Assembly: GCA_024277435.1 (NCBI GenBank)
Contig: JAJRVJ010000022.1
Span: 1-40,867 of the forward strand
Origin: Patescibacteria group bacterium
Lineage (GTDB): Bacteria; Patescibacteriota; Patescibacteriia; UBA9570
Direction of reading: 5' to 3'
DNA: 40,867 nucleotides
This document shows, one piece after another, positions 13,214 through 29,692 of the stretch (the stretch's first letter is position 1; every line of letters starts with the position of its first letter). Under the pieces are notes generated by a model. The model was not told the DNA's origin, ran no database searches, and worked only from the letters and a program-made list of their open reading frames with translations. Both the position numbers and the translations under genes were made by a program.

Positions 13214-13429
13214 TTATCGTTTTTTACGACGTGTAGTTTTACGCTTTGCTGGCTTTCGCTTAGCCACCTTCTTTTTTGCAGGTTTACGCTTTACTGTTTT
13301 TTTCTTGGCAACTTTACGTTTGGCTGGTTTACGTTTAGCAACCTTACGTTTTGTTACTTTCTTTTTCTTCTTAGCTACCTTCTTTTTTGCAGGCTTTCGC
13401 TTGCGCGCAACTTTTTTCTTTGCTGCCAT
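13214..13429 (-). CDS. Histone H1-like Lys-rich DNA-binding protein (71 aa)
   Basis: MAAKKKVARKRKPAKKKVAKKKKKVTKRKVAKRKPAKRK repeats; strong AAGGAGGTG Shine-Dalgarno upstream. Confidence 0.85.
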   Translation of the reverse strand: MAAKKKVARKRKPAKKKVAKKKKKVTKRKVAKRKPAKRKVAKKKTVKRKPAKKKVAKRKPAKRKTTRRKKR

Positions 13430-25047: not shown

Positions 25048-25614
25048 ATGGCACTTAGTAGTGTATCGAGCAGTCGATTTAAGAAAATGGTGATGAAGGC
25101 AACTGGTACTAAAGGGTATCTATCTTCTTCTGTGCAAAATTCTCTTCGCGCATCTGGATCCCAAAAATATCTGAGGGGCAGCGGTAAAGTTACTCGAGCG
25201 CAAGCTACTAAAGTAATGAAGCAACTTAAAAAAGAGGGGTTAGCTTCGAAGATATCTAGTAATGCTACAAAACATGTTAAACGCGCTTTTGCGGCTGAGG
25301 AGCAACGCAAAGACATGATAAAAAAGCAAAATATTGAAGATCGTAAATCGGAAATTGCAGCTGAAAAGGCGGCTGAACAAGCAAAGGCAGGTGGTAAAAA
25401 ATCAGGAGCTAAGCAATCTGCTGGTGCAGGAGCGGTGCAAATGAGCCACTCATCAACAATAACTGCTGCAAATGCAGCATCTGGAGATAAGTTTGTAGGT
25501 AACAGTTTTGGATCAACCGATTTAAAGCCATTGGCCGACCTACCAACGCAAGTGCGGAAACCTCAAGAATGGATAGATGAGGAAGCAGATTTAATTGATA
25601 TGGCAATAGATTAA
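25048..25614 (+). CDS. Hypothetical Lys/Ala-rich cytoplasmic protein
   Basis: 188-aa ORF immediately downstream of a good promoter; low-complexity AAEKAAEQAKAGGKKSGAKQSAGAGA segment. Confidence 0.7.
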   Translation: MALSSVSSSRFKKMVMKATGTKGYLSSSVQNSLRASGSQKYLRGSGKVTRAQATKVMKQLKKEGLASKISSNATKHVKRAFAAEEQRKDMIKKQNIEDRKSEIAAEKAAEQAKAGGKKSGAKQSAGAGAVQMSHSSTITAANAASGDKFVGNSFGSTDLKPLADLPTQVRKPQEWIDEEADLIDMAID

Positions 25615-25654
25615 CCCTTGCATATACCTTATATAAGTGTTACTCTACTTGAGT

Positions 25655-26254
25655 ATGCAAATTCAGTGGTTAGGACTTGGAAGTTTCCGTATTCAAACAA
25701 AAAACTCCGTAATTGTCACAGATCCGTACTCCGATAACAGCGGTTTAAAAATGCCTAAAAACAAGGCCGATCTTGTGTTGGTTTCGGATGCAGAAAATGA
25801 GTTAGCAAATAATATCTCCCGTTTAAGTGGTGATAGCTTTGTTATTGATGGTCCTGGAGAGTATGAAGTTGGCGGTACATTCGTATATGGAATACCAGCT
25901 ACAAACACTGTATACCTTATTGAAGATGAGGGTTTGCGAGTAGTATTCTTAGGCGGTTTAACTACCAGCCTTACCGATAAACAACTTGAACTTATTGAAG
26001 GTAGTCATATTTTATTACTACCAGTTGGAACATTATCTAAAGAAGTACGCACAGTGCTTATTAGCCAGATTGAACCACGTGTAATTATTCCATACATGTA
26101 TAAACAGCCGAAGCTTAAAGTGCAGCTAGATGATCTTAGTGTATTCCTAAAGGAAATGGGTATTAAAAAAGCCACTCCAGAAAAAAAATATACAATTAAA
26201 GCTAATCAACTACCAGCTGAAGAGACTAACGTAGTTGTATTAGCCAGCGAGTAA
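25655..26254 (+). CDS. UlaG-like MBL-fold protein lacking canonical metal-binding motifs
   Basis: MQIQWLGLGSFRIQTKNSVIVTDPY, VIDGPGEYEVGGTFVYGI, HILLLPVG, EPRVIIPYMYK. HxHxDH position reads SDAEN. ORF opens at 25637. Confidence 0.75.
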   Translation: MQIQWLGLGSFRIQTKNSVIVTDPYSDNSGLKMPKNKADLVLVSDAENELANNISRLSGDSFVIDGPGEYEVGGTFVYGIPATNTVYLIEDEGLRVVFLGGLTTSLTDKQLELIEGSHILLLPVGTLSKEVRTVLISQIEPRVIIPYMYKQPKLKVQLDDLSVFLKEMGIKKATPEKKYTIKANQLPAEETNVVVLASE

Positions 26255-26264
26255 CTCTTCGCAT

Positions 26265-27071
26265 ATGGCCGAAAAGAAAAAAAAGACGACAGCTAAAAAG
26301 AAATCGGCTACGAAGAAAAAAACGGCTGTAAAGAAGGCAATAAAAAAACCTGTTGCGAAAAAAACGGCTGTAAAGAAGAGGTCTGTTGCTAAAAATCCGG
26401 CTACTAAGAAAAAAAAGGTAACAACAAAAAAGAAGTCTGCTGTAAAGAAGGTTTCTAGAAAAAAGAAAAAAGCAGCCGTTAAAAGAATAGTCAAAAAGAC
26501 AACGGCTAAGAAAAAAACTACTTCTCCAAAAAAGTCCGCCTCTAGCGGAAAAGTTAAGGCTAAAAAATCTACTGCTAAAAAGAAAGCTCCTCTAGAACCT
26601 GTTGTAGAACCAACCATTGCTACTGAACAGCCAGTTGCAGCCCCTTCACAACCAATTGCTACACCCGAGAGAACACCAGACGTTACCGTACACAGTCAAC
26701 CTATCGTTACAATCCATGATAAACCCCGTACAGATAAAAGTATGTTATGGATAGCGGTAATTACTGTTACGGTGGTGATTGGAGTGCTCTGGATTTATTC
26801 CTTGCAATTTACCCTACCGTTCAATGCGGATAGAGGTATTACGCTAAATGAATCTAATCCACGTGTTGAAGAATTTTTCACTTCCGTGCAAAACGATTGG
26901 AGTGATTTTGAGAACAGCGCGGATTCATTCGAGAACTTAATTGGTGATACTTTGATTGAAGATACCACCGTAAACTCGAATACTAATGCTTCAGAGGTAA
27001 TCACTTCCCAAGAGCCAATCGGAGCTCCATCAACCGATGAATTAAACGATTTATTTTCAGATAGTAACTAG
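26265..27071 (+). CDS. Membrane-anchored histone H1-like protein
   Basis: N-terminal ~110 aa AKKK-type repeats, Pro-rich linker, single TM ([21 protein letters not shown]), acidic C-terminal segment. Confidence 0.8.
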
Positions 27072-27079
27072 TTAATGAT

Positions 27080-29692
27080 ATGCCAGCAAAAAAATCTTCT
27101 AAGAAAAAATCTACTCCAAAAAAGAAGCCTTCTACAGAGGTAGATGCTGAGAAAAAGAAAGAACTAGCTAAAGAAGCTGGTGAAGCTATGGAAGCAGCTG
27201 TAGAAACAGCCGTATCAACAATGAAGAACAATGAAGGCACAATTGTGGAGCAACCTATTGTTCAGGAAATGGAAGAATCATACTTAAATTATGCGATGAG
27301 TGTAATTGTAATGCGTGCGCTACCAGATGTACGTGATGGCATGAAACCAGTGCATCGCAGAATAATGTATGCGATGTGGACATTAGGATTACGTTCCAAT
27401 GCGAAATTTAGAAAATCCGCTACGGTAGTTGGTGAAGTGCTTGGTAAATATCATCCACATGGTGACTCTGCTGTATACGATAGTATGGTGCGTTTAGCAC
27501 AAGATTTTTCAATGCGCTATCCATTAGTAAATGGACAAGGTAACTTTGGATCGATGGATGGTGATAGTGCGGCTGCGATGCGTTATACTGAAGCTAAGCT
27601 TGCAAAGATTGCTGATGAACTGATGCTGGATATTGATAAAGATACTGTAAGCTTCCGCCCGAACTACGATGGCACGCATCATGAACCATCAGTATTACCC
27701 GCTCGTCTTCCTAATACATTAATTGGTGGAACCGTTGGTATTGCTGTAGGTATGGCTACAAATATTCCACCACATAACCTTAGTGAAATTTGTAAAGCTA
27801 TCATACATCTAATTGGGCACCCTGAAGCTGATGTTGAAGAATTGATGCAATTTGTTACTGGTCCAGATTTTCCAACCGGTGGAACAATTTATGATACTGA
27901 GGCAATTAAAACTGCCTATGCAACTGGTAAGGGTGGAGTAAAGATCCGTGGTATTGCCACAATTGAAGAGCTTAAAAATGATTACTTTAGCATTATCATT
28001 ACCGAGATTCCTTACCAAGTAAATAAGTCTACTCTCATCGAGAAAATGGCGTTACTTGTTAAAGATAAAAAAATTGAAGGCATTAAAGATCTCCGTGATG
28101 AATCTGATAGAACCGGTGTACGTATTGTTGTTGATTTAAAAAAAGATGCTTTCCCAAAGAAGGTATTGAATCGTTTGTTTAAACTTACTCAATTACAAGA
28201 CACTATTCACTTTAATATGGTGGCGTTAATCGATGGCATTCAACCACGATTACTTACGCTAAAAATGATTCTTGAAGAATACATTAAGCATCGTGAGGTA
28301 GTTGTACAACGACGCACACAATTTGAACTTGATCGTGCAGCAGCCCGAGCGCATATCTTAGAAGGTTTAGTAAAGGCACTGGAGAACATTGATAAAATTA
28401 TCATAACGATTAAGAAATCAAAGAACCGTGCAGAAGCTAAAGTTAATTTGATGAAGAAGTACAAGTTTTCTGATCCACAAGCTGTTGCCATTCTTGAGAT
28501 GCGCTTACATCAATTAGCAAATCTTGAACGTGTGCAAGTTGAAAATGAATTAAAGGAGAAGCTAGCAATTATTAAAGATTTGAAAAAAATATTATCTACA
28601 CGCAAAAATATTCTTTCTGTAGTTAAAGATGAAGTGAATGACATTCTTGAAAAATATGGTGATGAGCGTAGAACTAATGTTGTAGCAGCACCAATTGGTC
28701 AATTCTCTCAAGAGGATTTAATTCCAAAAGAAAATACATTAATCATGATGACGCGCGATGGTTACATCAAGCGCTTAACACCAGATACCTTCAAACAACA
28801 ACGTCGTGGTGGTAAAGGCGTAATTGGATTAACCTCAAAAGAAGAAGACTCCATTCATCGGCTAGTCCTTGCAACTACACATGACGATTTAATGTTCTTT
28901 ACATCTCGTGGCCGTGTGTTCCAATTAAAATCATACGAAATTCCACAAGCCTCACGTACAGCTAAAGGACAAGCCATGGTGAACTTCTTGCAACTTGGGC
29001 CAGATGAAGAAGTAACCACAATCATGAATGTAGCCGACATGGCTAAGTACAAACACATTGTAATGCTTACCAGCGCAGGAGTTATTAAGCGTACTGCCAT
29101 TGATGCATTTAGCAATGTGCGCCGATCTGGATTAATTGCTATTAAGCTAAAGGGCGATGATCAACTACACTGGGTAAAACTATCCACAGGAAAAGATGAA
29201 ATTATGTTAGTAGCCGATAATGGCCAAGCAATTCGTTTTAAAGAAACCGACGTTCGAGAAATGGGACGAAACGCTTCTGGTGTACGAGGTATTCGCCTAA
29301 AAGATGAAGGCGCTAAAGTTGTTGGAATGAATATCGTTCCAAACGGTGATCCTAAACATAAACAACTTGTAGTAGTAATGGGTAATGGATACGGAAAGCG
29401 CAGTGCCTTAAAACATTATAAAGTACAAAATCGTGGTGGATCTGGGGTGAAGACAGCGAAGATCACTGATAAAACCGGTCCAATCGTTCGTGGTTTTATA
29501 ATGGATACCAAGCAAGATATTGATACTGATATATTAATTATCTCAAAGAAGGGCCAAGTAATTCGCCTTCCATTAAAGACGGTTTCAGAACTAGGTCGCG
29601 CTACGCAAGGTGTGCGTGTAATGAAATTCAAACAAGAAGGCGATGTTGTAGGTGGTGTAACCGCCTTAGGCAAGGTAGACGAGGAAGCCTAA
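27080..29692 (+). CDS. gyrA: DNA gyrase subunit A with Lys-rich N-terminal extension
   Basis: [39 protein letters not shown], GyrA-box QRRGGKG. Confidence 0.97.

Follow-up and report, generated by a model that had tools for sequence, protein, structure and literature searches.

A lysine-rich membrane protein encoded between an MBL-fold gene and gyrA

The window, that is, the whole stretch of 40,867 nucleotides analyzed here, comes from a tiny, uncultured patescibacterium related to the Kerfeldbacteria. An ORF at 26265-27071 on its forward strand starts with ATG and encodes a protein of 268 aa (the window protein). The ORF is preceded, at a distance of 10 bp, by the gene of a Lactamase_B_3 (MBL-fold) protein (25637..26254, +), which was identified by Pfam PF13483 (E = 3e-24) and synteny and starts with either GTG at 25637 or ATG at 25655. 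It is followed after 8 bp by gyrA (27080..29692, +; NCBIfam GyrA equivalog, 1118 bits), the product of which bears an N-terminal extension. The ATG start of the ORF is supported by its orthologues, which likewise start with ATG at, or just beyond, the stop codon of the gene before. An antisense ORF (26240-26617, −) was rejected as a mere mirror of the Lys-rich frame. The MBL-fold protein seemingly lacks the HxHxDH metal motif (VSDAENELANN versus VSHDHYDHNN in relatives such as L031) and is perhaps a dead enzyme retained beside gyrA. A 188-aa protein encoded 5' of the MBL gene (25048-25614, +; ATGTKGYLSSSV region) is conserved in the genomes G002 and G003.

The N-terminal tail of the window protein (residues 1-110; 26265..26594, +) contains 47 Lys, 17 Ala, 13 Thr, 10 Val, and 3 Arg, with 1 Glu and no Asp. 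This corresponds to 43% Lys, 15% Ala, 12% Thr, and a net charge of +49, and confirms an earlier note in which this region was described as H1-like in composition. Only 9 of the 972 ORFs of at least 60 aa in 392 kb of the source genome contain at least 18 Lys within 50 residues. The Lys residues of the tail are encoded by both AAA (27) and AAG (20), and the tail is thus more than a simple homopolymer run. As to the Lys/Ala/Thr repeats that the note had also proposed, a repeat search found degenerate 44-nt copies with 61-77% identity in the tail, and TRF found no convincing tandem array there. The repeats are therefore compositional and diverged, and only in this sense can the term be kept.

By the curated cut-offs, the protein is not a member of the HC2/HctB family. 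The score against Pfam HC2 (PF07382) was 19 bits (E = 0.0016) versus a gathering cut-off of 40 bits; HC2 matches occurred in only 3 of 39 genomes, all below the cut-off, and no relative exceeded it. Likewise, the NCBIfam histone H1-like Burk model (NF038053) gave 24.5 bits versus a cut-off of 80 bits. A histone fold was not supported, as there was no Pfam histone match and the tail has no predicted structure, and no Pfam match was obtained for a winged-helix DNA-binding domain of the ToxR/CadC type in this disordered region. The translation contains no KPAA, the repeat unit of the AlgP/PhaF type, and a single KPVA. No DNA-binding fold was found in the 268-aa protein.

In the AlphaFold2 model, which was computed with 28 family members, residues 1-156 are without structure, and the tail has low pLDDT values of about 44-54 with no secondary structure. 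The linker (residues 111-158; 26595..26738, +) is rich in Pro, Thr, Val, and Glu, contains 9 Pro, and is also disordered in the model. The single transmembrane (TM) helix (residues ~159-180; 26739..26804, +) has a Kyte-Doolittle value of 2.42 over 19 residues, shows the Trp pattern of the family in the alignment, and was modeled as a helix at 157-183 in a block with a pLDDT of 92-93. The remaining segment (26805..27068, +) is acidic, with a net charge of −16 over the last 88 residues, and was modeled as an outer helix at 199-236 (pLDDT about 78-88) and a short C-terminal helix at 258-263 carrying an ELNDLFSD motif. According to the charge rule, the tail is predicted to lie in the cytoplasm and the acidic part to face the exterior (N-in/C-out). 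The Pro-rich linker, the one TM helix, and the acidic segment with its predicted extracytoplasmic location thus agree with the earlier description.

Conserved core and variable tail of the gyrA-linked family

The window protein is a member of an unnamed patescibacterial family, here termed MBL-TM-gyrA, that has been extended by an H1-like tail. Its gene is located directly between the MBL-fold gene and gyrA, it has a single TM helix predicted to be N-in, and it matches its counterparts in G003 (E = 4e-12), G002 (8e-11), and G021 (5e-6), values which cover the non-tail part of the sequence, the distant members being tied to the family mainly by position and TM pattern. The order of MBL-fold gene, TM protein, and gyrA is kept in the nearest relatives (G002 and G003). 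Moreover, 38 gyrA loci were recovered in a set of 39 genomes of the class, among them the source genome of the window, and each of these loci encodes a small single-TM protein immediately 5' of gyrA. A second set, partly overlapping with the first, consisted of 80 named loci retrieved via the MBL protein; gyrA was in range at 62 of them, and the TM protein was present at 53 of these 62 (one, L124, being doubtful), including loci from Kerfeldbacteria, Buchananbacteria, Falkowbacteria, Staskawiczbacteria, and Nealsonbacteria. No gyrA-linked TM gene was observed downstream of the MBL gene in Microgenomatia, where a DnaB-like gene comes next, or in Chloroflexota, where other genes do. In the TM-protein search, weak TM matches such as that at L009, an FtsX-like protein, were due to chance, and a match on contig C17 (L003) was another kind of small membrane protein, which lacks a basic tail. 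For the C-terminal part, no relatives were found in phages. The gyrA open frames of G004 (contig C5) and G028 (contig C3) comprise 1269 and 1308 codons, respectively, with the query match ending early, and likely contain inteins.

Among 84 distinct family proteins, the length of the segment N-terminal to the TM helix varies between 4 and 200 residues (median, 23), and its median net charge is +3. By K/R count, 68 of them are N-in, 5 are N-out, and 11 are ties, which is in line with the cytoplasmic location previously proposed for the Lys-rich N-terminus. The net charge of this segment is at least +15 in only six proteins, namely, the window protein, its counterparts in G003 (L088) and G002 (L089), Buchananbacteria L098, L033, and L037. 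Within the taxonomic family, it is +46 for the window protein, +27 in G003, and +16 in G002; the composition is kept, and the alignment revealed no sequence conservation in the tail. The H1-like tail of Buchananbacteria L098 (net +39) looks independent in origin. The architecture that the earlier note had asked to be sought in related genomes is therefore present in G003, G002, and a Buchananbacteria genome. The alignment showed that W176 in the TM helix is nearly invariant across the family and that a C-terminal motif (LxxxVFP/ELDxLFSD) is present in 12 of the 84 members, with the LxxxVFP form in the more distant ones. The family core is composed of the TM helix and a short outer helix. Given the variation in tail length, the H1-like part is an extension specific to this lineage rather than the core of the protein, and it is not needed for the shared role of the family, because most members have no basic tail.

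Other lysine-rich tails in the source genome

The source genome was sampled as stretches of ~392 kb in total, in which 365 genes were called crudely, and the genome-wide counts are thus estimates. In this sample, 43 proteins have their first TM helix after at least 35 residues, and the tail has a net charge of at least +25 in three of them: the window protein, the L064 protein, and a class A PBP (L085). The L064 protein (L064:1906-2856, +), encoded after a uvrD-type helicase gene, is a membrane protein with an H1-like tail and an outer domain predicted, from a model of moderate quality, to be PsbP/Mog1-like. Its family is unrelated to the window protein and, at 22-25% identity, has basic tails in all four genomes of the taxonomic family. 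The class A PBP (L085:1-1035 on contig C20, −; Transgly domain), whose gene is cut by the contig start, has an 88-residue Lys-rich cytoplasmic tail with a net charge of +25. The architecture is consequently not singular. Shorter Lys-rich N-terminal starts were found in a LytR-CpsA-Psr (LCP) protein and a PG_binding_4 protein, and a Lys-rich C-tail in a YtxH-like protein.

Non-membrane proteins carry similar stretches. The housekeeping sigma factor RpoD (L063:891-2288 on contig C9, −) has a Lys-rich N-tail of roughly 90 residues, as does RpoD of G013 (L170), and TopA (L082) contains a Lys-rich segment. GyrA has Lys-rich N-terminal extensions in the source genome and G005, shorter than the stretches of RpoD and TopA; the GyrA extensions range from 20 to 91 aa, mostly with little net charge. 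BLAST with the Lys-rich part of the window protein alone found only itself in the source genome. A free 71-aa protein in the window (13214-13429, −), consisting almost entirely of Lys/Arg/Ala/Pro/Val repeats (MAAKKKVARKRKPAKKKVAKKKKK...) and with no Pfam match, is a candidate stand-alone H1-like protein. HU is present in two copies, leaving no DNA-packaging gap for the tail to fill, and a role of the tails as a replacement for HU was therefore ruled out.

Discussion

The membrane part of the window protein belongs to an old conserved family, and its tail is a local addition common to several unrelated proteins of the genome. Considering its composition and the literature precedent, we tentatively suggest, as a possible rather than a probable function, that the tail is a membrane-bound binder of polyanions with nucleoid DNA as the likeliest ligand and that it might, as the earlier note had proposed, tether the chromosome to the membrane. 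A normally short cytoplasmic tail would have grown in this lineage into a disordered Lys-rich polycation of ~110 residues on a flexible linker. It would bind polyanions at the inner face of the membrane with no sequence specificity, chiefly nucleoid DNA, and many copies together could act as a weak, multivalent tether between chromosome and membrane, while the older role of the family would lie in its two conserved helices, the TM helix and the outer one. A disordered tail with a charge of +49 that is anchored in the membrane will necessarily encounter polyanions on the inner side, and DNA is the likeliest of these because RpoD, TopA, and GyrA are among the other proteins of this genome with Lys-rich stretches, a set resembling that of Streptomyces. 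However, the idea of a dedicated tether is weakened by the fact that cell-wall enzymes share such tails and that most family members have none.

The Lys-rich N-tails on cell-wall proteins (class A PBP, LCP protein, and PG_binding_4 protein) favor a generic topogenic, ribosome-facing, or lipid-facing role. The tail might thus be a generic basic cytoplasmic extension that sets the N-in topology, adheres to the anionic inner leaflet, and plays no part in the nucleoid, in which case its length and sequence would drift because only charge matters, as is observed in the variable and unconserved tails of the family. We consider this rather unlikely, since a 158-residue tail with a net charge of +46 far exceeds the needs of topology, for which most members manage with +3, and the similar stretches of the non-membrane proteins RpoD and TopA point to nucleic acid. 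Binding of ribosomes or RNA at the membrane, for cotranslational insertion or transertion, could be imagined by analogy with Oxa1, YidC, and Alb3, whose positively charged C-tails contribute to ribosome tethering (PMC8733628), and a polycation would bind rRNA as well as DNA. This seems improbable, because the constant link at the loci seen is with gyrA and not with genes for secretion or ribosomes, and the window protein with its one TM helix is no insertase.

The position of the gene directly 5' of gyrA across the class, together with the Lys-rich extensions of GyrA itself in the source genome and G005, might suggest that gyrase has a membrane partner in this family, the tail of which would bring DNA to a membrane-associated gyrase or keep it there. 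This is very improbable: it is based on gene order only, the GyrA extensions are variable and mostly carry little charge, and the conserved TM helix and extracytoplasmic helix cannot touch gyrase. That the tail is a neutral low-complexity expansion, produced by duplications of A-rich codons and with no function, would fit its degenerate repeats and highly variable length, but is extremely unlikely considering that the basic composition is kept within the taxonomic family by 3/3 of the members found, and by 4/4 for the L064 family, despite 22-34% identity, that AAA and AAG are mixed, and that acidic residues are nearly absent. A broader version of the tether to nucleoid DNA, in which a membrane-anchored H1-like set of this lineage (the window protein, the L064 protein, and possibly the class A PBP) jointly holds the nucleoid at the envelope through its distributed polycation tails, beside the free 71-aa protein, is unlikely.

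Little is understood of how bacteria that have no dedicated machinery fix their chromosome to the membrane, and a membrane-anchored polycation that acts regardless of sequence would be a simple solution to chromosome attachment. In Patescibacteria, the conserved gyrA-linked membrane protein clearly merits study, and the occurrence of H1-like tails on a range of unrelated proteins calls for caution against treating every such fusion as a special invention.

Comparison with known systems

Chlamydial HC2 and the Burkholderia H1-like proteins are free proteins. They (PF07382 and NF038053) resemble the window protein in their Lys/Ala-rich composition, whereas the window protein has a TM domain and scores far under both curated cut-offs. 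The 'transmembrane' prokaryotic histones (PMC11390915) likewise combine the histone label with a TM helix; however, they have a histone fold without DNA-binding residues, and the window protein has no fold and only charge. The KPAA tails of AlgP and PhaF have been proposed as tethers between granules and the nucleoid (PMC9239181), so that an H1-like tail would join another cell structure to the nucleoid in that case as well, but the structures linked are granules and not the membrane, and KPAA repeats are missing in the window protein.

The example of CadC shows that DNA can hold a single-pass membrane protein (PMC6320335). One-component receptors of the CadC/ToxR type share with the window protein one TM helix, a DNA-facing cytoplasmic N-terminal part, and a periplasmic C-terminal part, although they have a folded, sequence-specific DNA-binding domain instead of a disordered polycation. 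The plastid proteins PEND and MFP1 are membrane associated and have been proposed to be nucleoid anchors (PMC4154389), but they are unrelated in sequence to the window protein, and a domain of the bZIP type is present in PEND. Lys-rich tails are found in Streptomyces on TopA, HrdB, Ku, and HupS, and the repeats of TopA hold the enzyme on DNA (PMC7398561). The actinobacterial TopA, HrdB, Ku, HupS, and HupB have, as here, an H1-like Lys-rich add-on to unrelated proteins, several per genome; in contrast, they are soluble DNA-binding proteins (PMC7398561), whereas the tail considered here is carried by single-pass membrane proteins.
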